Origin: a virus
Virus record (IMG/VR): IMGVR_UViG_3300044641_005534
Coordinates: 1-35,352 of that record
Length of the DNA stretch: 35,352 bases
Reading direction: 5' to 3' (one strand)
This document shows positions 14,547 to 26,862 of this stretch, in pieces. The notes under the pieces were generated by a model that was given only the letters and a program-made list of their open reading frames with translations, ran no database searches and was not told the origin of the DNA. The translations under genes were made by a program, and so were the position numbers. The number at the start of each line of letters is the position of its first letter. Within the stretch, counting starts at the first letter, position 1.

Positions 14547-14575
14547 GAACATTCTTTCGGAGTCTCTGCTATGAT
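14547..14575 (+). promoter_or_regulatory. extended -10 promoter opening the accessory array
   Basis: TGC followed by TATGAT gives an extended -10; 17 bases upstream is GAACAT, a poor -35. The transcript would reach AAGGAGG (14600-14606) and the 13-codon ORF. CGACGAAGGAGG here is a diverged form of the array leader CCGACCAAGGAGG. Confidence 0.5.
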
Positions 14576-14612
14576 TGGTAGCGCAATCTGGTAACGACGA
14601 AGGAGGTTGCTC

Positions 14613-14654
14613 ATGAACGGTATGACGGAATCCACAACACGGAGCATCCGGTGA
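14613..14654 (+). CDS. 13-residue leader ORF
   Basis: MNGMTESTTRSIR, with AAGGAGG six bases upstream, the best ribosome site in this stretch. Its TGA overlaps the GTG of the next gene (GTGA). It may be a translated leader coupling initiation of the membrane protein downstream, which has no Shine-Dalgarno of its own. It has no run of one amino acid of the attenuation type. Confidence 0.5.
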   Translation: MNGMTESTTRSIR

Positions 14655-14929
14655 GTCGGCTCGGCGTAGTCGACTCGGCGATGGTGTTCCTTATCGGCGT
14701 GTCGGTCCTGCTTCTGGCGCTTGCATTCATGGCTTGGATCGCGGACCGCATCGGTGATGCATTCGAGCGGAAGCCTTACCCAAGGCGTCTGTCTGCACGC
14801 ATCCCCGCACGCGAGATGGAGCTGGTAGGCGATGACTACCGGGACTGTGTCGCAGGCTACTTCGCTCGGTCTGAGCGGAAGGCGGAGATCATCAACCATG
14901 TGACGGGAGCTAACGATGACCGTAAATGA
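14651..14929 (+). CDS. small membrane protein
   Basis: A 92-residue protein with one transmembrane helix at about residues 9-32 (a hydrophobic run containing VFLIGVSVLLLALAFMAWI), followed by a charged, probably cytoplasmic, domain. Starts with GTG inside the stop of the 13-residue leader ORF and overlaps the next gene by 14 bases. No family recognised. Small single-span proteins in phage accessory regions sometimes serve superinfection exclusion or lysis, but nothing here decides that. Confidence 0.7.
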   Translation: MSRLGVVDSAMVFLIGVSVLLLALAFMAWIADRIGDAFERKPYPRRLSARIPAREMELVGDDYRDCVAGYFARSERKAEIINHVTGANDDRK

Positions 14930-15104
14930 CGCTATGCGAGCGCTGGAGGAGGCACGGTCTTCTCTGCGCGATGCCAAGCACTCCATGACCCACCTGCAGG
15001 AGATCGGGGAAGTCTCCGATGAGCTGCGGCAGGCCACCAGCCGTCTGATGGACGGGGTGACCAATGTGGAGTCGGAGCTGGCGCGACACGTTTCCGAAGA
15101 CTGA
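14916..15104 (+). CDS. small coiled-coil protein
   Basis: A 62-residue protein that is helical along its length, with heptad-like leucine and alanine spacing and many Glu/Arg pairs; likely a short coiled coil. The ATG has GGGAG upstream. Its stop shares bases with the next start (TGATG). Function unknown. Confidence 0.65.
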   Translation: MTVNDAMRALEEARSSLRDAKHSMTHLQEIGEVSDELRQATSRLMDGVTNVESELARHVSED

Positions 15105-15298
15105 TGCTCGGGGATCTGGAGGCAGCCGTGCTCGACGCCCTGATCGGGGCCGAAGTCGAGCAGGCCGTTCCCGAAGTGGCCCAGCAGACCGGCCTGACCG
15201 AAGCCGATGCGCTGGCCGTGATCGAAGGGCTGGCCGAGCGGGGCCGAGCAAGGCTGATGGTCGCCCCGACCGGGGAAGAGCGGTGGTCCCTGTGCTGA
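15104..15298 (+). CDS. small winged-helix-like DNA-binding protein
   Basis: A 64-residue protein of MarR/ArsR-like winged-helix size. Segments: helix AAVLDALI, helix VPEVAQQTGL, a recognition-like helix TEADALAVIEGLAERG, then the strand pair RARLMVAPTGEERWSL. Starts within the preceding stop (TGATG). It could be a small regulator of the array, which is inference. Confidence 0.65.
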   Translation: MLGDLEAAVLDALIGAEVEQAVPEVAQQTGLTEADALAVIEGLAERGRARLMVAPTGEERWSLC

Positions 15299-15510
15299 AA
15301 CGCATCCATGTGAACCAGCACGTGATCCGCCGGAACGCAAAAACCGGCTCTCAAGAACCGCCCCTAACCGTGAAGACGTACCGGGACAACACGCTTTGCC
15401 ACTCGGTCGACATCCTTGGTCCGTCTAGGGTCGTCTACTCCCCTGAAAAACCGCTCTCATGCGGAGCGAAGGTCTGGATCGAAACCAACGCTGAAATTGT
15501 AACCGAGTAA
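15292..15510 (+). CDS. conserved small phage protein (PLSCGAKVWIET motif)
   Basis: A 72-residue protein. The motif VVYSPEKPLSCGAKVWIET near the C-terminus and RIHVNQHVIRRN near the N-terminus match a small family I recognise from many unrelated phages, including marine ones; its function is unknown. The likely start is GTG at 15292, overlapping the previous stop by seven bases; an in-frame GTG at 15283 is possible. The predicted fold is all-beta. Base composition is lower in GC than neighbouring array genes, suggesting a different origin. Confidence 0.75.
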   Translation: MLKRIHVNQHVIRRNAKTGSQEPPLTVKTYRDNTLCHSVDILGPSRVVYSPEKPLSCGAKVWIETNAEIVTE

Positions 15511-15515
15511 TGATT

Positions 15516-15544
15516 CCCCATTCTGGCGTGGGGTATGCTACAAT
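15516..15544 (+). promoter_or_regulatory. array promoter with extended -10, poor -35
   Basis: TATGC followed by TACAAT is the extended -10 shared by the array. The hexamer 17 bases upstream (CCCCAT) is a poor -35. A CCCCA/TGGGG hairpin (15516-15533) overlaps the promoter. The leader CCGACCAAGGAGG follows at 15564-15576. Confidence 0.55.
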
Positions 15545-15583
15545 GCGTAGCACAACCATTCACCCGACCAAGGAGGTCTGAAA

Positions 15584-15769
15584 ATGAGCGCAATCAAAAA
15601 CCAAACCGCTGGCGTATGTGTGGAGTGTGGCAAGGAGACGGACATCGACTCTCCGATCGTCTGCTTCGGCTGTGTCTCCGCTGCGGAGGCCAAGGCTCAG
15701 GGCATCGAGGTGCCCGAGTTCGATTCCTGCTGTGTCTCCCCTGTCGCTTCCGACCCGGTCCCCTTCTGA
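15584..15769 (+). CDS. zinc-ribbon-like small protein
   Basis: A 61-residue protein with two CxxC knuckles, VCVECGK and VCFGC, 15 residues apart, typical of a small zinc ribbon, plus a CC pair near the C-terminus. The start is fixed by the array leader (AAGGAGG seven bases upstream). It shares TGATG with the next gene. It opens the second transcription unit of the array. The role is unknown; such ribbons usually bind nucleic acid or protein. Confidence 0.75.
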   Translation: MSAIKNQTAGVCVECGKETDIDSPIVCFGCVSAAEAKAQGIEVPEFDSCCVSPVASDPVPF

Positions 15770-15924
15770 TGAGTCCGGAGTGGTGGGTCGAGGCCGTGTT
15801 CTCTCTCGAGGAGCGGCTCGGGGACGATTGGGATCAGGGCATGTCTGATCAGGAGCGCGAGGCTGCGATCGTGGACGAGGCGATCTGTGCCGGGTCCATC
15901 CCCGGCTGGCAGGTGATCGTATGA
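15769..15924 (+). CDS. 51-residue acidic protein
   Basis: A short acidic, tryptophan-containing helical protein (begins MSPEWWVEAVFSLEERLG). It is supported by overlapping junctions on both sides: its ATG lies in the preceding stop (TGATG) and its stop overlaps the next start (ATGA). No family recognised. Confidence 0.65.
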   Translation: MSPEWWVEAVFSLEERLGDDWDQGMSDQEREAAIVDEAICAGSIPGWQVIV

Positions 15925-16124
15925 GTGCCCGTCGTGGGCGCGGTCCTGCCGCTGCCAAGGTCGAGGAGCCAGACGCGCTGTATCGCGTGTTCCGGATCTC
16001 GGACGGGCTGCCTGCCTACCTGCCTGCGGGTCGGGGGATGCCGCTCGAGGAGGCCGAGCGCCTGTCAGGGCAGCTGGCCGTCCCTACCGAGGTGCGGGAG
16101 GTCTGGCGTCGGCCCGAGTCCTGA
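15921..16124 (+). CDS. small protein of unknown function
   Basis: A 67-residue protein with a basic N-terminus (RRGRG) and a compact middle (ALYRVFRISDGLPAYLPAG) that reads as strand-strand-helix. Starts by ATGA overlap with the upstream gene. The ALYR motif also appears near the N-terminus of the protein at 16888, so the two could be distantly related, but the similarity is short. Function unknown. Confidence 0.6.
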   Translation: MSARRGRGPAAAKVEEPDALYRVFRISDGLPAYLPAGRGMPLEEAERLSGQLAVPTEVREVWRRPES

Positions 16125-16127
16125 CCC

Positions 16128-16406
16128 GTGCGCGAGCTTGAGCTTTACCCGCGTGCCCGGTTCTCGGCCTACTACCCGGAGGGCGTCCCCGGCATCCTGA
16201 TGTGCGCGGAGTGCGCGATCGGGCGGTTCGGTGTCAGGTCTGTGTGGCGTGCCCTGCATGCGATCAAGGCCGACCCGGTGCTCGAGTCTCGGGCGCTCGG
16301 GTTCATCCTGCGGGAGGTTCCGGGCGCTGCCTGCACCGAGTGCTCGGAGCCGTTCTGGGACCAGCTTCCCCCTTCCCCCGAGTTGCTCGACACAGAAGAT
16401 TCCTAG
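16128..16406 (+). CDS. zinc-binding small protein with two CxxC motifs
   Basis: A 92-residue protein with MCAECA and ACTECS knuckles about 45 residues apart, a probable split zinc-binding site around a helical core. GTG start three bases after the previous stop without its own strong ribosome site, so translation is likely coupled. Last gene of its unit; a hairpin and a new promoter follow. Function unknown. Confidence 0.65.
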   Translation: MRELELYPRARFSAYYPEGVPGILMCAECAIGRFGVRSVWRALHAIKADPVLESRALGFILREVPGAACTECSEPFWDQLPPSPELLDTEDS

Positions 16407-16410
16407 CCGC

Positions 16411-16441
16411 CTGTCAGGTTTCCCGGTCGGGTGCCGACCCT
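16411..16441 (+). terminator. hairpin element, also present at 17191-17221
   Basis: GGTCGG-gtg-CCGACC (16425-16439) lies within a 31-base element that matches 17191-17221 at 24 of 31 positions. In both places it follows a stop codon and precedes an array leader. The second copy forms GGTC/GACC. These are probable unit-end hairpins but lack U-tracts. Confidence 0.5.
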
Positions 16442-16461
16442 ACCCTGACCCGGAGGGTGAC

Positions 16462-16490
16462 TTGTAATCGCTCGGCGGGTATGCTATGAT
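16462..16490 (+). promoter_or_regulatory. array promoter
   Basis: TTGTAA, a 17-base spacer ending in TATGC, and TATGAT. The leader CCGACCAAGGAGG is at 16506-16518, so the untranslated leader is about 25 bases. Confidence 0.75.
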
Positions 16491-16522
16491 GTGTAGCGTT
16501 GTTAACCGACCAAGGAGGCATC

Positions 16523-16891
16523 ATGTCAGCATCTGTTGGGGGCGCGACCCCCGTTTCCGTCCCGGCCTGTGTCATCGATCGTCCCGAGGGCGTCGAGGTC
16601 AACCTGTCGGGTCTTGTCATCGCTCACCCCCGTTTCGTGTTCGCCATGAAGGAGGCCGGTGCCGAGGAGTATGCGGTGCAGGATCGAGGCGCGTCGTTGT
16701 CGGAGGTCTGGCAGCGTCTCTACCGGCTGTCGTTGTCGGAGGTCATCTCCCCGGCGGTCCGCGACTACTCGGTGCTCGCCCTTGCCCGGACCGACGTCTC
16801 GGACGTGCTCATCCGGTTCGAGGATGGCACGCTACTCAACGTCGTCCGCGAGGCCGTCGAGTATTCGCCCCGCAGCAGGAGGTCAGCATGA
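16523..16891 (+). CDS. small protein of unknown function
   Basis: A 122-residue protein; the start is set by the array leader (AAGGAGG, 5-base spacing). The sequence alternates strands and short helices (VLIRFEDGTLLNVVREAVEY near the C-terminus). The RFEDGTLL motif resembles LFKDGSTLEIEAIV in the protein at 21819, suggesting a shared small beta fold among array products. No family assigned. Coupled to the next gene by an ATGA overlap. Confidence 0.7.
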   Translation: MSASVGGATPVSVPACVIDRPEGVEVNLSGLVIAHPRFVFAMKEAGAEEYAVQDRGASLSEVWQRLYRLSLSEVISPAVRDYSVLALARTDVSDVLIRFEDGTLLNVVREAVEYSPRSRRSA

Positions 16892-17163
16892 CTCCGGCGG
16901 GTGTCCCGGTCCCTGTCGAGGACGCGCTGTATCGGTGGCACGCCGACCGGTCCTACTCGTCGCACGACGACAACCGGATCACGGTCCTTGAGGCGTCTCG
17001 CCTTGGCGAGGTCTGGTCTGTCCGGTATCGGCTGGACCGCCGGAGCCGTCGGGAGGTCAGCACTGCGACCTTTGTGACCACTCCCCTGCGCACCACCTAC
17101 GGGGTTGCGACCGTCGAGGTCAGCGCGGGTGCGGCTCGGGTCGTCGCTGGGAGGTCGTTGTGA
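16888..17163 (+). CDS. small beta-rich protein
   Basis: A 91-residue protein: helix VEDALYRWHADRSY, then four or five strands (ITVLEASRLGEVWSVRYRL, EVSTATFVTT, YGVATVEVSAG). Its ATG overlaps the preceding stop and AGGAGG lies seven bases upstream. No recognised family; the strand pattern is typical of small phage host-takeover proteins in general, which is not evidence of function. Confidence 0.65.
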   Translation: MTPAGVPVPVEDALYRWHADRSYSSHDDNRITVLEASRLGEVWSVRYRLDRRSRREVSTATFVTTPLRTTYGVATVEVSAGAARVVAGRSL

Positions 17164-17235
17164 GGTCTGCCCCGAATCTTTTCGTGCGGTCTGTCAGGTC
17201 TGCGGGTCCGGGCGCGACCCTGTCTGTAACGTCAA

Positions 17236-17248
17236 CCGACCAAGGAGG
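17236..17248 (+). promoter_or_regulatory. array leader without an obvious promoter
   Basis: CCGACCAAGGAGG is intact, seven bases... before ATG 17255, but no TTGACT/TACATT pair at the usual distance is visible in the 91-bp gap. The upstream 31-base hairpin element (17191-17221) occupies the place where the promoter lies in other units. The gene may be read from the unit upstream. Confidence 0.6.
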
Positions 17249-17254
17249 TCAAGC

Positions 17255-17536
17255 ATGAACGCATCTCAGGAGGGGCCAGCTCGTCTGGTCGTGGTGGTGC
17301 CGCCCAGCGTGGCTGGCGGGTCAGAGGACCATCTGCGCTGGTTCGCCGGTCTGAAGGAGGCTCGGGCGCACGCGCTCGAGTACTTCCTTGCTGGCGACTC
17401 TGTCGAGACGTCGGTGGTGGTGGCCGTCGATGAGCAGGCTGCCGAGGGCGTGCCCGGCTGGGCGTCCGAGGATCTGGAGTGGAACCGGGCCGGTGTCCGT
17501 GACTGGCTGAAGCTGGAGCTGGAGCTGGGAACGTGA
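17255..17536 (+). CDS. small protein of unknown function
   Basis: A 93-residue protein: the strand LVVVVPPS, a helix FAGLKEARAHALEYFLAG, a strand ETSVVVAVDE, then an acidic C-terminal helix. The start is fixed by the array leader. It overlaps the following GTG by four bases. The beta-alpha-beta pattern suggests a small alpha/beta fold; no family recognised. Confidence 0.7.
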   Translation: MNASQEGPARLVVVVPPSVAGGSEDHLRWFAGLKEARAHALEYFLAGDSVETSVVVAVDEQAAEGVPGWASEDLEWNRAGVRDWLKLELELGT

Positions 17537-17973
17537 GCGCCGGGTTCCGGGGCCGTCTCGCAGGCCGTGACGCTTCCGGCGGGGTGGTGCGGCTTGGCGA
17601 TCGTGATTCGATGGGTCATGTCGTCGGCTTCATCCAGTCGGACGGGTCGTGCTGGGAGTCGGTGCTCGAGCACGACACATCCACCGCTGCGGGGCGCTAT
17701 GCGGACGCTGTGCAGGAGTTTCGGCGTGGCCTGACCCCTGACCCCCCGGACGTCCGTGCCATCGCTCAGGCGGCTTGTATCGATCCGGCGAATGTCGACG
17801 CCGCTGTGCAGGAGGCCGAGGAGTCGTTGGCCTTCTACGACCGGCTTCGGGACATGTCGCGTCCGGGTGTCGCTCGGTTCATGCTCCACTGCCTGCAGGA
17901 GGACCGGACCTTCGATTCGTGGACCGAGTTTCTGGACGCGCTCGGGGAGTGGCTCGAGGAGGGTCGGGGCTAG
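17533..17973 (+). CDS. hypothetical protein, helical
   Basis: A 146-residue protein starting with GTG in the preceding stop (GTGA). A short beta-rich N-terminus (VVRLGDRDSMGHVVGFI) is followed by a long helical part with many acidic residues. Its TAG stop sits in a CTAG shared with the convergent 32-residue gene, so the two stops overlap by four bases. Function unknown. Confidence 0.65.
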   Translation: MSAGFRGRLAGRDASGGVVRLGDRDSMGHVVGFIQSDGSCWESVLEHDTSTAAGRYADAVQEFRRGLTPDPPDVRAIAQAACIDPANVDAAVQEAEESLAFYDRLRDMSRPGVARFMLHCLQEDRTFDSWTEFLDALGEWLEEGRG

Positions 17974-18068
17974 CGGTCCCCGGCCTGCCGGTTGAGGTGC
18001 CACTCGAAGATCTCGATCCCGGCGATGTAGGTGGCGGCGATGGCGAGGCCGAGCAGCGTGTCGGTCAC
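17970..18068 (-). CDS. 32-residue membrane peptide
   Basis: GTG start overlapping the stop of the larger minus-strand gene (GTGA), stop in a CTAG shared with the convergent plus-strand gene. The product has one hydrophobic segment (TLLGLAIAATYIAGIEIF) and a charged C-terminus (EWHLNRQAGDR), the form of a small single-span protein. The exact fit between two gene ends supports a real gene. Confidence 0.55.
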   Translation of the reverse strand: MTDTLLGLAIAATYIAGIEIFEWHLNRQAGDR

Positions 18069-18601
18069 TCGCCCTTGCCGCGCTTCTCCGCCCGGTCGAG
18101 CTGGTCGCTCCGGCGTCGGGCCTTGGCAGCGATCGCCTGTGCCGCCTGCCGGGTCTTGGGGACCGGCTCACCCCACGCGGTCGCCATGAGTGCTAGGCGC
18201 GTCGGCTTGCCGTCGTCTCCGACCATCGGCCCCTTGGGGTTGGAGTAGAAGCGCGTCGCCCAGCTAATCCAGCGGCGCTTGTCTCGGGTGCTGGCCTTCG
18301 AGTAGCTCTTGACCCCCGGCTTGATGTTCTGCCCCTGTGCCTTCAGCGATCGTCTGCCCGCAGCGTTCAGCCCGCCCTTCGGGTTCTTGCCGCGCTTGGT
18401 CGTCCATGCCTGCCCTTCCAGCAGCTCGTCGAGGGCTGTCTCCGGCTCAGGCGGCTTCGGCTCGAGGTCGACGATCCCGTATTGCCGCAGGGTGTCGATC
18501 GCCTTGTCGCTTGTCTCCCGGTCTGGTCGTTTGTCCACGTCTGTATCGTAGCGCGGCTTGACCCTGCCCGCCCGTTCTGTTACGCTGCTCGTCGCAATCA
18601 C
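18065..18601 (-). CDS. basic hypothetical protein (GGLNxxGR motif)
   Basis: A basic protein of 178 residues, or 157 if it starts at GTG 18538. It contains KNPKGGLNAAGRRSLKAQG followed by a basic segment and an alanine/arginine-rich C-terminal helix. The GGLNxxGR motif is reminiscent of small basic DUF6321-like phage proteins, although the usual SFCARM ending is replaced. It is one of only two minus-strand genes inside the plus-strand array. The promoter of the next plus-strand gene (18558-18586) lies inside its 5' end if the longer start is used, which favours the shorter start. Neither start has a good ribosome site. A DNA-binding or head-associated role is possible. Confidence 0.65.
   Translation of the reverse strand: MIATSSVTERAGRVKPRYDTDVDKRPDRETSDKAIDTLRQYGIVDLEPKPPEPETALDELLEGQAWTTKRGKNPKGGLNAAGRRSLKAQGQNIKPGVKSYSKASTRDKRRWISWATRFYSNPKGPMVGDDGKPTRLALMATAWGEPVPKTRQAAQAIAAKARRRSDQLDRAEKRGKGE
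18558..18586 (+). promoter_or_regulatory. promoter of the multi-HTH gene
   Basis: TTGACC, 17-base spacer, TACGCT. Unlike its neighbours the spacer lacks TATGC and the leader is diverged (ACGACCTATCTAGGAGG, with an AGGAGG ribosome site). Confidence 0.65.
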
Positions 18602-18622
18602 GACCTATCTAGGAGGCTTCCC

Positions 18623-19738
18623 ATGACCCTTTCCGACCCCAGCGGGGCCGTCGCCCTGCCCGAGATCACCGTCCCTGTCGATGCCCGCCAGCGGCGCGAT
18701 CGTGAGCGGCGCTCCCTTGGCCTTTCGTGGTCCGAGTGGATCCTTTTCAAGGCGTGCGAGTGGACCCGTCTCTACGGCGTGCCCCCGTCTGCGATGGATT
18801 GGAACGTGCCGATGGCCCGTCGTTCGGCGACCCCCGAGCGTGCGGCGCTGCTGGCCGAGCGTTACTCGGAGCACGTCTGGCCGTCGACTTCGACTACGGC
18901 TTCGAAGTTCGGGTCTTGGAACGCCATGATCGAAGCGGCAGGTCTGCCCGCCATCCCCGGTGGCCGTCGCCGGACCCGTGCTCGGGACCAGTGGCCCAAG
19001 GCTCAGGCTCGGCGTGAGCGGATCGAGGCGCTGCTGCTGGAGGGTCGCTCTCGGCAGGAGGTGGCCGACGCGCTCGGGATCTCCCGCGCTTCCCTTGCAG
19101 GGGACATCGTCCGGATGCGGCGGCTGGGCTTCGACGTCCCCGACTCGAACCGGTCTGGCGTGACCGTTGTCAGGCCGCACATCGAACCGCCCGAGGTGGT
19201 CGGGCCTTCCCCTGCCGTGCTGCAGCAGATCGCCGCGCTGTGGCGGCTGGGTGCTCCGGTTCAGGAGATCGCTGACACCTTCACCGGCGGTCACCCCGGC
19301 GTGCTGCTCTCCCACGTCGAGCGGTGCCGTGCCGCCAACCCTTCCCTGCCCGTCAGGGATCTCGAGCGCAGCGAGGCCGAGCGGCAGCTGTCGCCGGAGC
19401 GCGAGGCCCGCTTGCAGGAGGTCGCCGAGCTGTGGCGCTCGGGGCTTCGGTCGGAGGTCATCGCCGATCGCCTTGCCGTTGCCCGCTCGACCGTCTGGGC
19501 CGACGTAGCGCTTCTCCGCGATCGTGGAGTCGCCCTGCCGGAGCGCCCGCCCGGACGTCCCCGGCTGGATGGTCCGTCTGCCCCGGTGCTGCAGCGTCGT
19601 GCCCGCGTTCGGACTATGGATCACGCGGGGCTGAACACCGCAGCGATCGCCGAGCGGCTGGGCGTGACCCCAGCGACCGTGCGGGCCGACCTGCGAGCGA
19701 TTCGGGACGCTTCGCCGAGCCGCTACGGGGGCGCTTGA
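18623..19738 (+). CDS. multi-HTH DNA-binding protein with an HNH-associated repeat
   Basis: A 371-residue protein with four helix-turn-helix modules at about 130-168, 198-237, 261-301 and 328-363. Each has the pattern LWRxGxxxxxIADxLxVxxxTVxxDVxxLR. The N-terminal part (67-108, with WPSTSTTASKFGSWNAMIEAAGL) resembles the repeat found next to HNH homing endonucleases, but no nuclease domain is present. The start at 18623 is set by AGGAGG. It lies in the middle of the array under a variant promoter and leader, and its TGA stop is inside the -35 box of the next promoter. Four HTHs would suit binding to a long or repeated site; a regulator of the repeated array promoters is the obvious hypothesis, not shown. 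Confidence 0.8.
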   Translation: MTLSDPSGAVALPEITVPVDARQRRDRERRSLGLSWSEWILFKACEWTRLYGVPPSAMDWNVPMARRSATPERAALLAERYSEHVWPSTSTTASKFGSWNAMIEAAGLPAIPGGRRRTRARDQWPKAQARRERIEALLLEGRSRQEVADALGISRASLAGDIVRMRRLGFDVPDSNRSGVTVVRPHIEPPEVVGPSPAVLQQIAALWRLGAPVQEIADTFTGGHPGVLLSHVERCRAANPSLPVRDLERSEAERQLSPEREARLQEVAELWRSGLRSEVIADRLAVARSTVWADVALLRDRGVALPERPPGRPRLDGPSAPVLQRRARVRTMDHAGLNTAAIAERLGVTPATVRADLRAIRDASPSRYGGA

Positions 19739-19763
19739 CTTCTGTCGGTCGGGATGCTATGCT
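19735..19763 (+). promoter_or_regulatory. array promoter; -35 contains the upstream stop codon
   Basis: TTGACT, 17-base spacer ending in ATGC, TATGCT. The TGA of TTGACT (19736-19738) is the stop of the multi-HTH gene. Leader CCGACCAAGGAGG at 19775-19787. Confidence 0.85.
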
Positions 19764-19793
19764 GTGCGCAGCAACCGACCAAGGAGGTATCAG

Positions 19794-21099: not shown

Positions 21100-21131
21100 G
21101 TCGTCACCATTACCGACCAAGGAGGTATCGC

Positions 21132-21524: not shown

Positions 21525-21549
21525 GGTCGGTTCTCAGCGATCGCGGGAG

Positions 21550-21585
21550 GGACGGGGGTCCGGAGAGCCAGCCGGATTCCCGTCC
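21550..21585 (+). terminator. long terminator hairpin
   Basis: GGACGGG pairs with CCCGTCC, with an inner GTCCGG/CCGGAT stem, followed by ATTCATTT. Located after a GCGATCGCGG motif at the end of the unit. Confidence 0.7.
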
Positions 21586-21615
21586 ATTCATTTCACCACA
21601 ACCAGAGGAGGCAGC

Positions 21616-21822
21616 ATGACGACGATGGGTTGGCCCGGTTCTCGGGAGGAGGAGTATTTGCAGGCGCTCAGCGAGCCTGTGCAGGTGGACGGCTTCGATT
21701 CGATCGAGGCGTGGGCCGCTTCGCAGCAGCTCACCCTGTCGGAGGCGCTCGAGGAGGGCGTGCGGCAGGACGACGACGGGACGATCTGGGTGCCCGTCAA
21801 CCTGAGCAGGTGGCTGGCGTGA
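21616..21822 (+). CDS. small acidic protein
   Basis: A 68-residue acidic helical protein containing FDSIEAWAASQQLTLSEALEEG, ending with a strand-like TIWVPVNLSRWLA. The ribosome site is AGAGGAGG; the upstream leader (CAACCAGAGGAGG) is a diverged array leader and no TTGACT promoter is visible in the 91-bp gap. It may rely on read-through. Overlaps the next GTG by four bases. Confidence 0.65.
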   Translation: MTTMGWPGSREEEYLQALSEPVQVDGFDSIEAWAASQQLTLSEALEEGVRQDDDGTIWVPVNLSRWLA

Positions 21823-22121
21823 CGGGCCTGCTCGATTGGCACGACGAGTCGAGTCGGGGTAACCTGCTGGTCCTGTTCAAGGACGGCAGCACGCTCGAGA
21901 TCGAAGCGATCGTGGGCGGTGGGATGTTCGTCGGCGACGATCCCGACAGCGGCTCGGGCTACGAGGTGCACGCGACGGCGGCGGACGGATCTCCGCTCAC
22001 CCTTCAGCAGTCAGCGATCGCGGCGGTGCTCGAGCTTGAGCGGCTTCGGCAGGTCGAGTTCGGCAACCCCTTTGTCGCGTCCCCGGCTGGTCACCCGCGT
22101 GGTCGAGCGGTTCCTGCTTGA
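21819..22121 (+). CDS. small beta-rich protein
   Basis: A 100-residue protein with strands NLLVLFKDGSTLEIEAIV and GGMFVGDD, then a helix LQQSAIAAVLELERLRQVEFG. GTG start in the preceding stop (GTGA). Its TGA stop lies inside the -35 box of the next promoter (22118-22123). No family recognised. Confidence 0.65.
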   Translation: MTGLLDWHDESSRGNLLVLFKDGSTLEIEAIVGGGMFVGDDPDSGSGYEVHATAADGSPLTLQQSAIAAVLELERLRQVEFGNPFVASPAGHPRGRAVPA

Positions 22122-22146
22122 CTTCTGCCGGTGCCTATGCTACATT
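22118..22146 (+). promoter_or_regulatory. array promoter; -35 contains the upstream stop codon
   Basis: TTGACT, 17-base spacer ending TATGC, TACATT. The preceding gene stops at TGA 22119-22121, within the -35. Leader CCGACCAAGGAGG at 22162-22174. Confidence 0.9.
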
Positions 22147-22180
22147 ACTTAGCGTTAGGAACCGACCAAGGAGGTATCAA

Positions 22181-22672
22181 GTGAGCACAACCACATTCCA
22201 CGATCGCGTCGTCGACGGAGAGGCTCGGGCCGAGGGATTCGTCCCGGTCATCGTCGAGCGGCTCGGCAACATGTTCGGTGGCCGGGCGCTGGCGATCAAC
22301 GTCAGGGGCAGCAGCATCGACATTCGCTACGGCGTCGAGCAGGTCAGCGGCACAACCCCGCAGACCGAGCGTTGGGTCGGCGTCCGGGTCACCGCCAACT
22401 TCCCTTCCTACTCGAAGGGCATGAGCTACATGGAGCTGTCCCCGGAGCTGATGACTCGCACCGGCAGGAGTCCCCGGCACAGCGGGTTCTGGTCACCCGA
22501 CATCAACCTGAGCGCAGGTCGCTCAGACCGGATGGCCGACGGCGCGGAGGTCACCTGCAGCTCGGGGCCGCTGCTCAACGGCGGCGAGGGGCCGGGCCGA
22601 GCGGCGATGTTCACTGGCTGCCTGTCGATCGCCAACGGGCTGATCGAGGACGCCGAGGAGCTGGGCCTGTAG
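22181..22672 (+). CDS. hypothetical protein, beta-rich
   Basis: A 163-residue protein starting with GTG at the position where ATG stands in other units (GGTATCAAGTG). Central strands include ALAINVRGSSIDIRYGVEQV and WVGVRVTANFPS; the C-terminus is a helix (LSIANGLIEDAEELGL). This layout of a strand-rich body and a final helix recurs in the proteins at 22889, 23903 and 24361. No family recognised. Confidence 0.7.
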   Translation: MSTTTFHDRVVDGEARAEGFVPVIVERLGNMFGGRALAINVRGSSIDIRYGVEQVSGTTPQTERWVGVRVTANFPSYSKGMSYMELSPELMTRTGRSPRHSGFWSPDINLSAGRSDRMADGAEVTCSSGPLLNGGEGPGRAAMFTGCLSIANGLIEDAEELGL

Positions 22673-22697
22673 CTCAGCGCCACATCCGGTAGCGATC

Positions 22698-22721
22698 GCG
22701 GCTCGGAAGTTCTCGGGCCGC
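22698..22721 (+). terminator. unit-end hairpin
   Basis: GCGGC pairs with GCCGC around a 14-base loop; the left arm overlaps GCGATCGCGG and CTTTCGCG follows. Moderate support. Confidence 0.5.
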
Positions 22722-22762
22722 TTTCGCGTTGGCCGCAGCCCGCAAAGCGAGAATGGGACACA

Positions 22763-22791
22763 AGCATAGCTTTTTCACGCTGGGAAGTCAA
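22763..22791 (-). promoter_or_regulatory. isolated minus-strand promoter
   Basis: On the minus strand TTGACT, 17-base spacer, TATGCT, followed by TGTGTCCC. GCGATCGC directly abuts the -35. It points left, antisense to the gene at 22181, with no minus-strand gene nearby. It shares the TGTGTCCC start region with the promoters at 25017, 30192 and (one change) 30254. Confidence 0.75.
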
Positions 22792-22826
22792 GCGATCGCG
22801 GGGAGAATCTTTTGTGGTCGGTGCCC

Positions 22827-22855
22827 TTGACTTCTGCCGGTGGGGATGCTATCGT
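22827..22855 (+). promoter_or_regulatory. array promoter
   Basis: TTGACT, 17-base spacer ending ATGC, TATCGT. Leader CCGACCAAGGAGG at 22870-22882; the gene starts with GTG. Confidence 0.87.
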
Positions 22856-22888
22856 GCTTTCAGTAGGAACCGACCAAGGAGGTAGCAA

Positions 22889-23374
22889 GTGAAGATCAAC
22901 CCCGTCATTTACAAGGTGCTCGAGGCGAAGCTCAACGGTCGTCTGGGCGTCTCGGAGTACATCGAGGACGCCGAGCAGGTGCTCATCTACGAGTGCGAGG
23001 GCGGACACATCTGGCGCAGGTTCAGTCGCGGACACGGCGACGATCGCGTCGAGTACGACGTCTCGGTCCAGATGGTCACCCAGAACTTCGGGCGGATCAC
23101 CGTGTATCGGTATGCTGGCTACGATATCGAGCAGACGATCATCCCCGCCATCGAGTTCGGGGCGCTGTCCGTCACCGCAGCGTCTCCGGCGCTCCCGGTG
23201 CTCGAGGTGCCGGAGGCGTCGCTCACCGACATCGCAGAGATCCGGCTGTGGAACTCGGCCTTCGAGTTCGCGGTCGAGATGAGCGAGGTGCTCGTCAAGG
23301 TCGCCAACGGCACCTACGAGCCGGAGTCGCTGGTTCGGGCAGCCGAGTGGCTCGAGGGGCAGGTGGCCGCATGA
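22889..23374 (+). CDS. hypothetical alpha/beta protein
   Basis: A 161-residue protein: N-terminal helix (VIYKVLEAKLNG), central strands (YDVSVQMVTQNFGRITVYRYAG), and a C-terminal helical part (EFAVEMSEVLVKVANG). GTG start with the array leader. Coupled by ATGA overlap to the next gene. Similar layout to other array proteins; no known family. Confidence 0.7.
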   Translation: MKINPVIYKVLEAKLNGRLGVSEYIEDAEQVLIYECEGGHIWRRFSRGHGDDRVEYDVSVQMVTQNFGRITVYRYAGYDIEQTIIPAIEFGALSVTAASPALPVLEVPEASLTDIAEIRLWNSAFEFAVEMSEVLVKVANGTYEPESLVRAAEWLEGQVAA

Positions 23375-23559
23375 AGGGCTTGAGGGGCCGTCGCACAATC
23401 GTCCTGATGGACCTGACCGCCGAGGAGGTAGCGTCCCTGCGGAAGCTGTCCCAGCAGGAGGAGTCCCGGCTCGACCTTCGGCAGGCGTCTGGGGAGCTGC
23501 CCGAGACCGGCAAGGTTCGCGCCAAGGTCGTCGCAAAGCTCCTGCGGGTGACCGAGTAG
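23371..23559 (+). CDS. small charged helical protein
   Basis: A 62-residue protein: strand RRTIVLMDLTAEEVASLRKL, then a charged helical tail. It starts by ATGA overlap and ends with TAGCGATCGCGGG, so the GCGATCG motif overlaps the stop codon. The strand-helix beginning with DLTAEEVASLRKL is typical of small phage proteins of unknown function. Confidence 0.65.
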   Translation: MKGLRGRRTIVLMDLTAEEVASLRKLSQQEESRLDLRQASGELPETGKVRAKVVAKLLRVTE

Positions 23560-23569
23560 CGATCGCGGG

Positions 23570-23593
23570 TGGCCCTGCCTTCGGGCGGGGTCA
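23570..23593 (+). terminator. UUCG-loop terminator abutting the next promoter
   Basis: TGGCCCTGCC-TTCG-GGCGGGGTCA, a 10-bp stem with two G-U pairs and a UUCG loop. It ends one base before the next -35 (23595). Confidence 0.75.
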
Positions 23594-23594
23594 C

Positions 23595-23623
23595 TTGCTT
23601 TTCGCCGGGGGCTATGCTACATT
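23595..23623 (+). promoter_or_regulatory. array promoter
   Basis: TTGCTT, 17-base spacer ending TATGC, TACATT. Leader CCGACCAAGGAGG at 23636-23648. Confidence 0.85.
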
Positions 23624-23654
23624 ACCCAGCAGTAACCGACCAAGGAGGTATCGC

Positions 23655-23903
23655 TTGACTGACACACTTCACATCCCACTCTCGGCGGCAGTCGCACTTG
23701 CCGAGGCCAACGGCTGGGCCTTCACGCCCGGTGAGGACGCGGCTCCGCCCACTCTGTCCTGCGGCGGGTCCGCCTTCCAGATCGACATGGAGCGCCCCGG
23801 CGAGACCAAGGTCGCGGTCGCCAGCATCGTCGGTGCCCTGCTCGATCGTCCGGTCGAGTCGATCGCGGTGCGGCTCGGGCCGCTCGGAAGGTCGTGGTCG
23901 TAA
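23655..23903 (+). CDS. small protein with TTG start
   Basis: An 82-residue protein. The TTG stands exactly where ATG stands in sister units (GGTATCGC then start), so the conserved leader decides the start. The N-terminal half is a helix (LSAAVALAEANGWAFTPGED), the rest strands with one cysteine. Shares TAATG with the next gene. Function unknown. Confidence 0.7.
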   Translation: MTDTLHIPLSAAVALAEANGWAFTPGEDAAPPTLSCGGSAFQIDMERPGETKVAVASIVGALLDRPVESIAVRLGPLGRSWS

Positions 23904-24364
23904 TGGCCAGCTTCGATCCCACCACCCGGCTGGCGACGTCGCTGCTTTCGCACCGGCTCGGCACGCACCTTGTCGCCGACGAGCGGGTCACCAAGAGCGC
24001 CGAGGCCACTGCCGAGACCGTGCTCTACGAGATGCTGACCGGCTGCCTTCAGGTGTCGATCGTGACTCAGGCCGATGGGTCGCTGTTCGCTCCCGCCGCT
24101 GGGCCTTACCCCGCAACGATCGCGGAGGTCCGGGTCGTCGAGAATCAGTCTGGCGGCTTGACCACGCTCGAGGACATCGCGGAGGTCGGGTGTCCCCGGA
24201 TCTCGATCGTCTGGGCGACGTCCAACCCGATGGACCGGCAGGGCTGGCCGCAGTTTGACCTTCAGGTCAGCTCGGGCACGGTGCCGCCGCAGCACGCCGA
24301 GGGCTTCGTCGTCGCGCTCGAGGTTGCCAACGCACTCGTCAGCTCGCTGAGGGTGTCCGCATGA
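23903..24364 (+). CDS. hypothetical alpha/beta protein
   Basis: A 153-residue protein starting at ATG in the previous TAA (TAATG); an in-frame GTG at 23894 has no suitable ribosome spacing. Helix AEATAETVLYEMLTG, strands LQVSIVTQADG, IAEVRVVEN and RISIVWATSN, then a C-terminal helix (FVVALEVANALVSSLRVSA). It looks like a distant paralogue of the proteins on either side of it. Coupled to the next gene by ATGA. Confidence 0.7.
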   Translation: MASFDPTTRLATSLLSHRLGTHLVADERVTKSAEATAETVLYEMLTGCLQVSIVTQADGSLFAPAAGPYPATIAEVRVVENQSGGLTTLEDIAEVGCPRISIVWATSNPMDRQGWPQFDLQVSSGTVPPQHAEGFVVALEVANALVSSLRVSA

Positions 24365-24807
24365 TCACGCAGGAGGCGATTGATCAGGCCGAGCGCTTCG
24401 GCACTCGGGAGGAGCTTCGGATGCTCGTCGATGTCGACTTCGCGGTCGAGGCTAGCGGGGTTCCCGCCGAGGTTCTCAGCAGCTCGAGTGGTCCCGGCTA
24501 CGCGCAGCTCCGGCTCGGCGTCGTCCGCCTGTCGGGGAGGCCCGTCCGCTGGTTCGGGGTGATCTACCGGGTCACGCTGGGCTACGACGGCAGCTTCCTG
24601 TTTGCCGAGATCGGCGGGGCTTCGATGATCGGCGACGGCAGGACGGTGTCGGGCTACCTGTCGCTCCCGCAGATTCGGATCTCGACGGATCTCGAGGGCC
24701 GCGTCGCGGACGAGCTGTCGCTCGACGGCGTGGTGCAGCAGGAGGCTGGCCCGGCGTTGGCCTTCCAGACGGCGCTCGGCTTCCAGCTGCTTCAGCGACT
24801 TTCCTAA
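24361..24807 (+). CDS. hypothetical alpha/beta protein
   Basis: A 148-residue protein with strands around AQLRLGVVRLSGRPVRWFGVI, an YLSLPQIRIS strand, and a terminal helix (ALAFQTALGFQLLQRL). Third gene of its unit. The strand-body plus final-helix plan matches the preceding gene, suggesting duplication and divergence inside the unit. A GCGATCGTGG motif and a strong terminator follow. Confidence 0.7.
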   Translation: MITQEAIDQAERFGTREELRMLVDVDFAVEASGVPAEVLSSSSGPGYAQLRLGVVRLSGRPVRWFGVIYRVTLGYDGSFLFAEIGGASMIGDGRTVSGYLSLPQIRISTDLEGRVADELSLDGVVQQEAGPALAFQTALGFQLLQRLS

Positions 24808-24831
24808 GTCTGGTCGGTTCCAGCGATCGTG

Positions 24832-24866
24832 GGTCCGGGCCTAGCGGCTCGGGCCTTCGGTCGTTT
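24832..24866 (+). terminator. terminator with TTCGGTCGTTTT tail
   Basis: GGTCCGGGC-CTAGCG-GCTCGGGCC (9-bp stem, the same arms as 21038-21059) followed by TTCGGTCGTTTT. The tail recurs at 26226-26247, 26630 and 26851. Confidence 0.82.
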
Positions 24867-24897
24867 TGGATCGTGCGAGATTCTTTCCGGTAGGGAC

Positions 24898-24926
24898 TTG
24901 CTTTTTCTGGACGGTTAAGCTACTAT
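24898..24926 (+). promoter_or_regulatory. array promoter without a downstream gene
   Basis: TTGCTT, 17-base spacer ending AAGC, TACTAT. The partial leader CCGACCAAGG at 24939-24948 lacks the GGAGG ribosome site and no ORF follows. It converges on the minus-strand promoter at 25017-25045. Covers the 24808-25144 gap, which holds no gene. Confidence 0.72.
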
Positions 24927-24947
24927 CTGTAGGTCAATCCGACCAAG

Positions 24948-24986
24948 GCGCAACCGGGGGAACCAGACCGGAGAGCACCCCCTACC
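24948..24986. repeat. 39-bp element, copy 1, between convergent promoters
   Basis: Matches 30112-30150 at 31 of 39 positions without gaps; most differences are transitions. It begins GCGCA, contains ACCGGAGA and ends in CCCCCT plus ACC. In both places a plus-strand promoter lies to its left and a TGTGTCCC-type minus-strand promoter to its right. It could be an RNA or a protein-binding site. Confidence 0.75.
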
Positions 24987-25016
24987 CTGTAGGCCGCGCA
25001 GCGAGACCGGGACACA

Positions 25017-25045
25017 ACCATACCTTTTTCTCGGCAGGAAGTCAA
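25017..25045 (-). promoter_or_regulatory. minus-strand promoter facing the 39-bp element
   Basis: On the minus strand TTGACT, 17-base spacer, TATGGT, then TGTGTCCC. Directly preceded by GATCGC. The transcript would cross the 39-bp element and then run antisense to the gene at 24361. Confidence 0.72.
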
Positions 25046-25079
25046 GCGATCGTGGCAGGAAATATCTTTGCCCTACGGC

Positions 25080-25108
25080 TTGACTTTTGCCGGACGCGAT
25101 GCTACATT
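25080..25108 (+). promoter_or_regulatory. array promoter
   Basis: TTGACT, 17-base spacer ending ATGC, TACATT. Leader CCGACCGAGGAGG (one change) at 25126-25138. Confidence 0.88.
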
Positions 25109-25144
25109 ACCCGTGTTAGTTGGAACCGACCGAGGAGGTATTAC

Positions 25145-25387
25145 ATGGCTAGTGAACTTTCACCGCTCGAGCGCCGCGTCATGCAGCAGATCGCTGTGTG
25201 GGAGAACGAGGGCGTCTACCCCGAGCGCGTCTGGCTCGACGAGGTCATCAACGTCGAGGGCGTGGACGCCGCTGTGCAGGCGCTCGTCGATCGCGGCGTG
25301 CTGGTCGAGACGGACGTATTCGTCACGACACCGGCAGTCGCCGAGCACGGCAGCATCGAGGCCGCTCGGCAGGCGGTCGGCCAGTGA
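25145..25387 (+). CDS. small winged-helix-like protein
   Basis: An 80-residue protein: helices PLERRVMQQIAVWENEG, WLDEVINVEG and AAVQALVDRG, then the strand pair VLVETDVFVTTPAV, a clear winged-helix order. The start is set by the leader. The next gene has the same general order, so the unit may encode two related DNA-binding proteins. Targets unknown. Confidence 0.7.
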   Translation: MASELSPLERRVMQQIAVWENEGVYPERVWLDEVINVEGVDAAVQALVDRGVLVETDVFVTTPAVAEHGSIEAARQAVGQ

Positions 25388-25647
25388 CCCCGGCTCAGCG
25401 TCGGATCATGGACGCGGTCGAGGCAGCTCCGGCGGGTGTCGGGGTCTGCTTCGACGGCAGGTCGTCGGCAGCGATCGACGCGCTTTACCGGCTCGGGCTG
25501 GTCGAGCGGGACATCGATCACGTCCAGTCGCTTCGGGCCGGTGGCAGCTTCCACCGCGCCACCCGGATTCGCGTCTGGCTCGCGGGTGGCCCCTACCCCG
25601 AGGGCGGGGACGTCTGGCCGAACGGTATCCCTTGGTGGCTGGCTTGA
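25384..25647 (+). CDS. small winged-helix-like protein
   Basis: An 87-residue protein beginning TPAQRRIMDAVEAAPAGVGV, a first helix like that of its neighbour, followed by AAIDALYRLGLVERD, a recognition helix and wing pattern, and a tryptophan-rich C-terminus. GTG start in the preceding stop. Its TGA (25645-25647) is inside the next -35 box. Confidence 0.68.
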   Translation: MTPAQRRIMDAVEAAPAGVGVCFDGRSSAAIDALYRLGLVERDIDHVQSLRAGGSFHRATRIRVWLAGGPYPEGGDVWPNGIPWWLA

Positions 25648-25672
25648 CTTCTGTCGGGCGCTATGCTACATT
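25644..25672 (+). promoter_or_regulatory. array promoter; -35 contains the upstream stop codon
   Basis: TTGACT, 17-base spacer ending TATGC, TACATT. Leader CCGACCAAGGAGG at 25690-25702. The promoter-leader stretch is almost identical to those at 25080 and 26260. Confidence 0.9.
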
Positions 25673-25708
25673 ACCCGTGTTAGTTGGAACCGACCAAGGA
25701 GGTATCGA

Positions 25709-25963
25709 ATGGAAATCATCACGGAGGCACGGAGGATCAGCGAGATCATGGGCGTCGTGTCGCTGCCGGTAGCTATCGTCCGGCGCACGGGCAACAGCGT
25801 CGCGTTCGAGACGTCCAGCCACATCACTCGGGACAACCCGATCGGCTCGGGCGTCACTCAGCTCATCACCGAGGACGGGACGATCGTGGTCCCTTCCGAT
25901 GCTCGGGTCCGGGTCACGATCCACGTCGATGACGCCGACGTCACGGTGGAGGACAACCAGTGA
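25709..25963 (+). CDS. small beta-rich protein
   Basis: An 84-residue protein with a short N-terminal helix (EARRISEIMG) and several strands (VVSLPVAIVRRTGNSVAFE, GTIVVPSDARVRVTIHVDD). Short strands with TEDGTIVVP turns resemble the DGT loops of the proteins at 16523, 20529 and 21819. Start set by the leader; overlaps the following GTG by four bases. Confidence 0.7.
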   Translation: MEIITEARRISEIMGVVSLPVAIVRRTGNSVAFETSSHITRDNPIGSGVTQLITEDGTIVVPSDARVRVTIHVDDADVTVEDNQ

Positions 25964-26190
25964 GCCGCGTCGTGTTCAGCATGCTCTGCCCGGAGTGCGA
26001 CGACGAGATCGTCGACATCGAGGTCGAGGCCAGCAGCGGCTCCCGCACGGAGAACTTCTGGGGCGCTCGGGTCCGGGTCGACGAGTCCGAGTGCGAGGTC
26101 GATGTTCTGCCGCCCTGCGACACCTGCGGCGAGGTGACGGTCAGCGAGGACGAGGTCATCGACCACTACTGGATGAAGGTGGCTGGCTAG
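25960..26190 (+). CDS. zinc-ribbon-like acidic protein
   Basis: A 76-residue protein with knuckles LCPECDDE and PCDTCGE separated by an acidic beta segment of about 40 residues, fitting a split zinc ribbon similar to that at 16128. Very acidic overall. GTG start inside the preceding stop. Function unknown; an acidic zinc-binding protein could mimic DNA or bind a host factor, which is speculation. Confidence 0.7.
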   Translation: MSRVVFSMLCPECDDEIVDIEVEASSGSRTENFWGARVRVDESECEVDVLPPCDTCGEVTVSEDEVIDHYWMKVAG

Positions 26191-26219
26191 TCCCGCAGCG
26201 ACGGCTCGGCGATCGTGTG

Positions 26220-26247
26220 CCCGGCTTCGGTCGGGTTTCGGTCGTCT
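26220..26247 (+). terminator. UUCG-loop terminator
   Basis: CCCGGC-TTCG-GTCGGG, then TTTCGGTCGTCTTT. Preceded by GCGATCGTGTG. Confidence 0.78.
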
Positions 26248-26259
26248 TTGCTAGCTCGT

Positions 26260-26288
26260 TTGACTTCTGCCGGGGTCTATGCTACATT
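26260..26288 (+). promoter_or_regulatory. array promoter
   Basis: TTGACT, 17-base spacer ending TATGC, TACATT. Leader CCGACCAAGGAGG at 26306-26318. Confidence 0.9.
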
Positions 26289-26324
26289 ACCGTTGTCACT
26301 AGGAACCGACCAAGGAGGTATCGC

Positions 26325-26585
26325 ATGAATCTCGAAGTCTCGCCGAAGGAGAAGGCTCGGATCAAGGAGCTGGTCGAGAAGGCTGGCTACCTGTCCGAGG
26401 ACGGGATCATGGACGTCGCCGACGCGATCGTCCCCGGCTACGGCGAGTGTCTCGTCGAGCAGGACGAGGCCGGTGCCGACCGGCACTACCGGAAGTGGAA
26501 GCTGGCGTTCAACCTGACTTGGGATTACGTCGAGTATCTCGAGGCGCGGTCCCGGTTCGAGGCTTTGGCCGACCCGTTGGCCTAG
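26325..26585 (+). CDS. small helical protein
   Basis: An 86-residue, mainly helical, charged protein: PKEKARIKELVEKAGYLSEDG, then a tryptophan- and tyrosine-containing helix (WKLAFNLTWDYVEYLEA). Single-gene unit with its own promoter, leader and terminator, and the last protein-coding unit of the main array. No family recognised. Confidence 0.7.
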   Translation: MNLEVSPKEKARIKELVEKAGYLSEDGIMDVADAIVPGYGECLVEQDEAGADRHYRKWKLAFNLTWDYVEYLEARSRFEALADPLA

Positions 26586-26610
26586 CTGGTCGGTTCCAGC
26601 AGCGATCGTG

Positions 26611-26639
26611 GCCCCGCCCTTGGTGGGGCTTCGGTCGTC
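26611..26639 (+). terminator. unit-end terminator
   Basis: GCCCCGCC-CTT-GGTGGGGC, an 8-bp stem with one G-U pair, then TTCGGTCGTCTT. Directly follows GCGATCGTG. Confidence 0.8.
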
Positions 26640-26645
26640 TTGGCC

Positions 26646-26674
26646 TTGACTTTTCAGCAGCGGTAAGCTACAGT
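26646..26674 (+). promoter_or_regulatory. array promoter driving a non-coding unit
   Basis: TTGACT, 17-base spacer ending AAGC, TACAGT. The partial leader CCGACCAAG at 26687-26695 has no ribosome site. The AAGC before the -10 is shared only with the other non-coding unit at 24898. Confidence 0.8.
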
Positions 26675-26680
26675 TGTTTA

Positions 26681-26862
26681 GTCAATCCGACCAAGACATA
26701 GGCAAGTCCTCTTACTCCACAGTGCCGTCTGGCCCCCACAGGTTGGGCGACCACTAACACAGCCCACGTGAGTCAGGGATGCCCGTTGAAAGAGCCGGGT
26801 AGAGAAGGGGCAAAGGTTCGGATCGATCGTAGCTCCGCCCGGTGCGGGGCTTCGGTCGTTTT
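26681..26862 (+). ncRNA. candidate structured small RNA, about 180 nt
   Basis: A promoter at 26646-26674 and a terminator at 26831-26862 enclose about 150 bases with no ORF and no ribosome site. Foldable parts: a long hairpin 26721-26755 with AGTG/CACT, GTC/GAC and GCCC/GGGC stems, and CCCG/CGGG at 26782-26799. It does not look like tRNA or tmRNA and I recognise no RNA family. The transcript starts near GTCAATCCGACCAAG, as does that of the 24.9-kb unit. Confidence 0.55.
26831..26862 (+). terminator. terminator between the RNA unit and terminase
   Basis: AGCTCCGC-CCGGT-GCGGGGCT, an 8-bp stem with one G-U pair, then TCGGTCGTTTT. It lies three bases before the end of the convergent terminase gene. 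Confidence 0.83.

Follow-up and report, generated by a model that had tools for sequence, protein, structure and literature searches.

A row of small genes lodged between the portal and terminase genes of an uncultured phage, most of them introduced by much the same promoter and leader, raises the question of how so varied a set of genes came to share a single regulatory design, and what that design accomplishes. The array is carried by IMG/VR record IMGVR_UViG_3300044641_005534, a fragment of 35,352 bases analysed here as a whole (the window), which encodes a phrog_675 terminase large subunit and a portal protein. The interval between these two genes (14547-26862) comprises 14 predicted transcription units, 13 of which possess a sigma-70-like promoter with an extended -10 element, in addition to two units, N1 and N2, that contain no open reading frame (ORF; Table 1). 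The units contain one to four ORFs, mostly of 51-165 codons, the exception being a 371-codon ORF in U5; the original prediction, made from the letters of the window alone, had described one to three ORFs of 50-165 codons, which holds for most units but neither for the fullest ones nor for U5. We consider it likely that an early regulon spanning the whole phage is at its densest in this array, with standard flanks serving as insulated gene slots.

The most uniform element of the array is a 13-base leader, CCGACCAAGGAGG, of which the window contains 12 exact copies where its composition predicts 0.003. All 12 reside on the plus strand and directly precede an ORF start. Eleven of them, together with a one-mismatch copy at 25126, fall within 14547-26862, bearing out the shared leader that had been predicted. 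Sigma-70-type sites are tenfold enriched in 14300-27000 (11, versus 1.1 with a standard deviation of 1.1 in shuffles), and the promoter consensus across the units reads CTTGACTTYTGYCG-N7-TGCTAYNNT, with a TG-extended -10 element located 11-19 bases ahead of the leader. The common promoter first described as TTGACT-N17-TACATT therefore survives as a sigma-70-like design in most units but not as that exact string, which is present at four sites only (22118, 25080, 25644, and 26260). Among 14 units (counting U15, which lies outside the interval), the mean pairwise identity amounts to 0.94 in the leader, 0.78 in the -10 element, and 0.62 in the -35 element (0.79 in U6-U14), against a background of 0.30 in the first 60 bases of the genes and 0.28 in the 60 bases upstream. 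As claimed, the flanks are far better conserved than the genes they enclose.

The same leader recurs throughout the lineage to which the window belongs. Relatives in IMG/VR were identified through the terminase, namely, G001 (80.9 kb, terminase 77%), G002 (134.7 kb), G003 (130 kb), G020 (127.5 kb), G021 (126 kb), and the fragments G011 and G022, while G004 (105 kb) and G005 (112 kb) were first found by their promoter-leader pattern and afterwards confirmed to encode the same terminase and portal. Together with the window (G000) they make up ten lineage records, some of which may be incomplete. These contain 63 exact copies of CCGACCAAGGAGG, compared with 0.07 expected from composition, distributed as 12, 2, 13, 16, 8, and 10 in G000-G005, one each in G021 and G011, and none in G020 and G022. 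All but one of the 63 directly precede a start codon followed by an open frame of at least 35 codons, and in 35 cases TGNTANNNT is present within the preceding 60 bases, against a background of 0.1-3.5%. Judged by sequence, the idea of one regulon-like design is supported. A literature search returned no paper with the string CCGACCAAGGAGG. Its CCGACCAA portion also stands apart from the ribosome site: 65 copies in the lineage records are not followed by GGAG, and 24 of these have a -10 element at most 45 bases upstream. Among the 24, some of which are probably chance occurrences, several are separated from a ribosome site by 4-45 bases, and those of N1 and N2 have no ORF at all. As it also accompanies promoters with a detached ribosome site or with none, CCGACCAA probably does not act solely as a ribosome site.

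In contrast to the leader, the promoter sequence near the -10 element differs between phages while remaining uniform within one, as if each phage employed a dialect of its own. With the -10 core omitted, 41 of 64 units have their nearest promoter within their own record (window, 11 of 14; G004, 15 of 17; G001, 6 of 11; G002, 6 of 10; G021, 2 of 4), whereas 2000 label shuffles gave a mean of 11.5 and a maximum of 24. A promoter scan by position weight matrix was usable for the window, G001, G002, and part of G005; in G003 and G021 it returned mainly noise, and the sites of these two were taken from stricter patterns instead. The dialects are in part palindromic. Pairing exceeds the maximum of 300 random draws in G001 (0.57 vs 0.49), in G002 and G003 combined (0.56 vs 0.45), and, on another axis, in G004 (0.60 vs a maximum of 0.46), and does not exceed the random maximum in G003 alone or in G021 alone. 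Within the window, U1-U3 lack a strong -35 element and have instead a palindrome whose axis is the last T of TGCTANNNT (0.71 vs a maximum of 0.67 in 300 random draws), whereas U6-U14 show no palindrome (0.42 vs a random mean of 0.40) and have instead a strong -35 element with TTYTGYCG. Given that the U1-U3 palindrome resembles those of G001 and of G002 and G003, and that U6-U14 are devoid of one, the left units may lie closer to the ancestral design, with the right units forming a derived class. The dialect precedes even conserved genes: where Ku and ATP-dependent DNA ligase genes diverge from one intergenic region, each phage's own dialect stands in front of them, the G002 and G003 ligase promoters being alike (29 of 39) as expected for close relatives. 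The flanks do not visibly accompany their genes, since homologous genes are preceded by the dialect of whichever phage they occupy.

The ends of the units are marked less regularly than their beginnings. The motif GCGATCGYGG occurs exactly 13 times in the interval, nine of them non-coding (4.28 per kb of non-coding vs 0.39 per kb of coding sequence). At most unit ends it supplies the 5' arm of a bipartite hairpin, with a CGATCG/CGGTCG outer stem and a variable inner stem. Folding of 11 unit ends yielded a mean z score of -2.73, against -0.27 for 33 coding stretches, and seven of the 11 reached a P of 0.045 or better. U5, U8, and U12 are without a terminator because their last stop codon falls inside the next TTGACT, the TGA of the -35 box of U6, U9, and U13, respectively. 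The predicted closure by GCGATCGYGG and a hairpin accordingly applies to most unit ends but not to all. Hairpins followed by a U tract show no enrichment (8 vs 6.2 expected), so termination by these structures is presumed. The folding of N1 and N2 is not better than that of shuffled sequence (z 1.39 and -0.76), and a structured RNA is therefore not claimed for them. Known RNA families were absent at gathering score from the window and from G001 (80,000 of its 80,925 bases, in four pieces) except for one G001 tRNA, and from 22600-26900 at E values up to 1.

While the flanks persist, the genes between them turn over. At E values up to 1e-3, a match in G001 was found for 5 of 31 array genes as opposed to 17 of 20 flanking genes, and when only proteins shorter than 171 amino acids are compared, for 5 of 30 and 9 of 11 (Fisher P 2e-4). 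Three of the 17 flanking matches are weak or partial (9359-10753, 28595-28858, and 32513-33961), and one of the five array matches is a 19-residue C-terminal remnant of the first U12 protein (25145-25387), situated beside the G001 terminase. The G001 segment that contains it (52257-52560, compared with 24897-25400 of the window) consists of a promoter, a long stretch without an ORF (z -2.05), and then the remnant, and is probably a decayed unit. Other homologues have moved. The last U8 gene (21819-22121) is found in G001 across the portal, at 39534-39827, the homology ending five codons before the stop codon in the U9 -35 box; the U4 gene at 17533-17973 has a homologue in G011 and a relocated one in G005; and the U7 protein is homologous to a domain within a 3786-amino-acid frame of G001. 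Frames of such size (2388-3786 amino acids) occur in G001 (7306-18666, minus strand), G005 (44823-52508, minus), and G021 (110375-117538, plus), and pieces of them, U7 included, are separate small genes in other records. Even G002 and G003, whose terminases are 82% identical, have 8 and 7 operator sites with only four genes behind them in common, the rest differing, and the DUF6321 gene is the single gene of the array region kept in place in the nearest relative (75%). Strictly conserved unit order was not seen, and turnover and relocation of genes between relatives are evident.

These observations can be assembled into a coherent scheme. Host RNA polymerase would transcribe the units early, a phage regulator would read the phage-specific promoter element, CCGACCAA would mark early units with a second address at the transcript level, and neighbouring units would be insulated from each other by the hairpin. 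Because the flanks are standard, a foreign gene landing between a leader and the next promoter would be expressed at the right time and genes could turn over quickly, whereas the flanks would persist, kept alike by selection and by recombination between units. The best candidate for the regulator, as a guess, is an HTH_17-like protein of 68-144 residues that is conserved in 8 of the 11 records compared; its gene stands behind a dialect promoter in G004 and just beyond the stretch corresponding to the window in G001. The U5 protein, with its multiple helix-turn-helix stretches, could be a second regulator. Several findings weigh against this scheme. The HTH_17 gene is missing from the 35-kb window, surpasses the Pfam cut-off in only one of ten records (G002), and has a dialect promoter at a distance of some 420 bp or less in just one of eight. 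U6-U14, where there is no palindrome, give no support to a single operator-reading regulator; in G005 the promoters do not cluster (one of eight has its nearest counterpart in the same record) and the palindrome does not exceed the random maximum (0.44 vs 0.50). At four of the 11 unit ends, the folding is not better than that of shuffled sequence (P > 0.05). Finally, some homologues stay in place, namely, the DUF6321 gene, the last U2 gene, Ku, the ligase, and several G001-G005 and G002-G003 pairs.

A different emphasis is suggested by the PeSLs of T4-type phages, reportedly described as mobile regulatory cassettes by Arbiol in 2010 and Comeau in 2014. They appear in the literature as an early promoter plus a stem-loop between the small genes of hypervariable regions, for which a role in gene shuffling is proposed (PMC4503421, PMC3950731), and a similar motif is mentioned for the archaeal virus HGTV-1 (PMC3950731). 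The array likewise places a promoter and a stem-loop, as one element, between the small genes of a variable region. By analogy, the repeated terminator, promoter, and leader would be maintained for gene swapping by homologous recombination, regulation being secondary. We view this as a credible possibility, albeit one that probably falls short as the chief explanation. An identical stretch of 33 bases, reaching from the -10 element to the leader, precedes the unrelated genes of U12 and U13, some genes are fused to the next -35 box, terminators abut the next promoter, and turnover between portal and terminase is high. On the other hand, promoters differ between phages and leave little homology for recombination between them: only the 13 leader bases are held in common, upstream and 5' untranslated sequences are at or near background, and the repeats within one phage are short and imperfect. 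The U12/U13 block and the stop codons in the next -35 box are thus possible traces of the proposed recombination at the flanks, exact breakpoints being visible in few cases. The array further departs from the PeSLs in its added conserved leader and its promoter divergence among related phages; PeSLs belong to T4-type phages, and the core genes seen here are the phrog_675 terminase, portal, and baseplate, no search having been aimed at T4 core genes.

A bolder version of the early-regulon reading, speculative and on balance unlikely, would regard CCGACCAA as a lineage-wide early-transcript address instead of a ribosome site and the dialect as a private key, the two together forming a gene-capture platform that is the phage counterpart of an integron array. 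If so, any ORF behind a resident leader would at once be expressed, insulated, and under the resident regulator, while genes bringing a foreign dialect would stay silent until recaptured.

Dispersed, phage-specific regulatory sites are also known as the conserved inverted repeats of phiC31. The stoperators of cluster A mycobacteriophages are similarly described as many dispersed copies of a phage-specific regulatory site (PMC9283540, PMC6550527), and both resemble the present sites in being numerous, phage specific, and covarying with the phage. The palindromes might by extension be immunity-repressor operators that silence the lytic genes of a temperate phage, as they overlie the -10 region in several relatives and are many per genome. 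We judge this improbable. Here the sites are promoters at gene starts, U6-U14 have no palindrome, and neither tyrosine integrase (PF00589; none in the ten records) nor serine recombinase (PF00239; none over cut-off) was detected, with the reservation that the records may be fragments. Since no tyrosine integrase was found, the term morons, used in the original prediction, is likewise not supported in its prophage sense.

Simpler still, each set of flanks could have been selected separately as a strong host-type promoter and ribosome site, with no shared regulator and no special leader. The promoters do fit the sigma-70 consensus, and AAGGAGG lies within the leader. Yet CCGACC, which cannot pair with the anti-Shine-Dalgarno sequence of 16S rRNA, equals AAGGAGG in conservation; the 24 cases of CCGACCAA without GGAG behind a -10 element include N1 and N2; and phage-specific dialects would not be expected, all of which renders such piecemeal selection decidedly improbable. 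The like flanks in a row might also point to a single unit that was recently duplicated in tandem and whose genes then diverged, but this is so improbable that it was ruled out, the array proteins being unrelated to each other (one unconvincing pair at E 0.003 among all).

Among known systems, the closest likeness to the array is found in cluster K mycobacteriophages, a parallel that was originally termed partial and has turned out closer. Sections of the cluster K literature describe start-associated sequences (SAS), a 13-bp start-associated repeat, with an upstream SigA-like promoter bearing inverted repeats (PMC3203893, PMC11373665, PMC12699233), the extended form (ESAS), whose inverted-repeat consensus varies between subclusters (PMC3203893, PMC11373665). 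The leader is likewise an asymmetric 13-base repeat ahead of start codons (3-9 bases ahead for SAS), present in many copies, in one orientation relative to genes, in intergenic, non-structural gene regions, and with conservation extending past the Shine-Dalgarno part to bases that do not pair with rRNA. About half of the sites in both systems have an upstream promoter element (here 35 of 63 with a -10 element), and inverted repeats differ in consensus between subgroups (here G001, G002 with G003, G004, and U1-U3, but not U6-U14). The differences are equally clear: the SAS sequence GGGATAGGAGCCC has no occurrence in the window at two mismatches or in the ten records at one, the phages are unrelated at the DNA level, and the present units line up between portal and terminase, the majority having a hairpin of their own and two having leader cores that lack an ORF. 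By its layout, the array thus appears to join SAS/ESAS and PeSL features while being a member of neither family. The occurrence of an SAS/ESAS layout in phages unrelated by DNA to cluster K, joined to PeSL-like insulation, suggests a general way for large phages to add accessory genes without breaking the early programme. Eight records of 80-135 kb, some possibly incomplete, in which gene content turns over and regulatory grammar stays provide natural variants for the study of start-associated sequence function. The about 30 compact, mostly family-less genes are candidates for host takeover or counter-defence, and the promoter-leader signature offers a simple means to find such genes in metagenomes.

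Table 1. Coordinates and composition of the predicted units and associated features of the window
Feature	Coordinates	Strand	Composition
U1	14546-15510	+	Promoter TGCTATGAT at 14567; palindrome arm GGTAGCGCA; variant leader ACGACGAAGGAGG 14594-14606; 13-codon ORF first, then ORFs of 92, 62, 64, and about 73 codons
U2	15515-16460	+	Promoter 15536; palindrome arm GTAGCACA; leader 15564-15576; ORFs 15584-15769, 15769-15924, 15921-16124, 16128-16406; hairpin region no better than shuffles
U3	16461-17235	+	Promoter 16482; palindrome arm GTAGCG; leader 16506-16518; ORFs 16523-16891, 16888-17163
U4	17236-17973	+	Leader, no recognisable promoter; ORFs 17255-17536, 17533-17973
DUF6321 gene	18065-18541	-	Opposite strand to units
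U5	18556-19738	+	Promoter 18578; variant leader CCTATCTAGGAGG; 371-codon protein with several helix-turn-helix stretches
U6	19734-20463	+	Promoter; leader 19775; ORFs 19794-20000, 19997-20413; putative terminator z -3.95
U7	20463-21070	+	Promoter; leader 20511; ORF 20529-21026; putative terminator z -5.5
U8	21069-22121	+	Promoter; leader 21113; ORF 21132-21524; putative internal terminator; ORFs 21616-21822, 21819-22121
U9	22116-22762	+	Promoter; leader 22162; ORF 22181-22672; GCGATCGCGG at 22692
U10	22826-23594	+	Promoter; leader 22870; ORFs 22889-23374, 23371-23559; putative terminator z -2.9
U11	23593-24896	+	Promoter; leader 23636; ORFs 23655-23903, 23903-24364, 24361-24807; putative bipartite terminator z -5.5
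N1	24897-25015	+	Promoter 24918; CTGTAG and CCGACCAAGG; no ORF; faces leftward promoter 25017-25045
U12	25078-25647	+	Promoter; one-mismatch leader CCGACCGAGGAGG 25126; ORFs 25145-25387, 25384-25647
U13	25642-26258	+	Promoter; leader; ORFs 25709-25963, 25960-26190; hairpin
U14	26258-26645	+	Promoter; leader 26306; ORF 26325-26585; putative bipartite terminator z -3.4
N2	26646-26862	+	Promoter; CCGACCAAG core; no ORF; putative bipartite terminator; adjoins terminase gene
U15	31718-32083	+	Same design, outside 14547-26862; promoter 31740; leader 31761; ORF 31778-32083

The products of the array offer few clues to function. Searches against Pfam, PHROGs, and PADLOC gave few, weak matches, most proteins matching no family, and the U7 and U9 proteins yielded poor AlphaFold models (mean predicted local distance difference test scores of 52.6 and 43.2). 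The suggested anti-defence role found no support here: none of the nine array proteins submitted to PADLOC produced a match, and the sole match of the ten proteins tested was the DNA methyltransferase encoded outside the array at 9359-10753 (plus strand). Homologues of this gene lie elsewhere in G002-G005 and G011, with a partial match in G001, and it is a putatively mobile accessory gene.

Positions 14000-27000 have no near DNA match among 50,697 phage records, the flank of one unit gave three matches at chance level in cultured phages, and the terminase is less than 30% identical to those of cultured phages among the 25 of 691 records listed. A terminase search of genome contigs returned no relative and hence no pointer to a host, and a search for the same promoter dialect in close relatives found no such stretch in viral contigs and two matches in genome contigs that look like chance. 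Since G001 encodes a baseplate protein, the lineage is probably myoviral.

Seven of the ten lineage records (G001, G002, G003, G005, G020, G021, and G022) encode a Ku protein, and in four a divergent ATP-dependent DNA ligase gene lies beside it (in G001 the pair is at 4807-5634 and 3697-4647), a possible phage end-joining pair. By tblastn, the lineage Ku had no match in cultured phage records, and no paper joining Ku, ligase, and phage was found in the literature. A leftward class of promoters, TTGAC..TATGCTTGTGTCCCGTYCTY, with conserved first transcribed bases, is represented in the window at 22763-22791, 25017-25045, 30198, and 30259 and in G001 at 56193 (all minus strand); two of them fall within the array, oriented against U9 and N1/U11. 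ParB-like genes adjoin one another in the window (34326-35351, minus strand) and in relatives. The hexamer CGATCG, used by the hairpins of the window, is common there (75 vs 53 expected) and in G002 and G004, whereas it is nearly missing from G001 (2 vs 76 expected), G005 (0 vs 219), G020 (2 vs 268), and G022 (2 vs 46), a scarcity that suggests restriction avoidance in some relatives.

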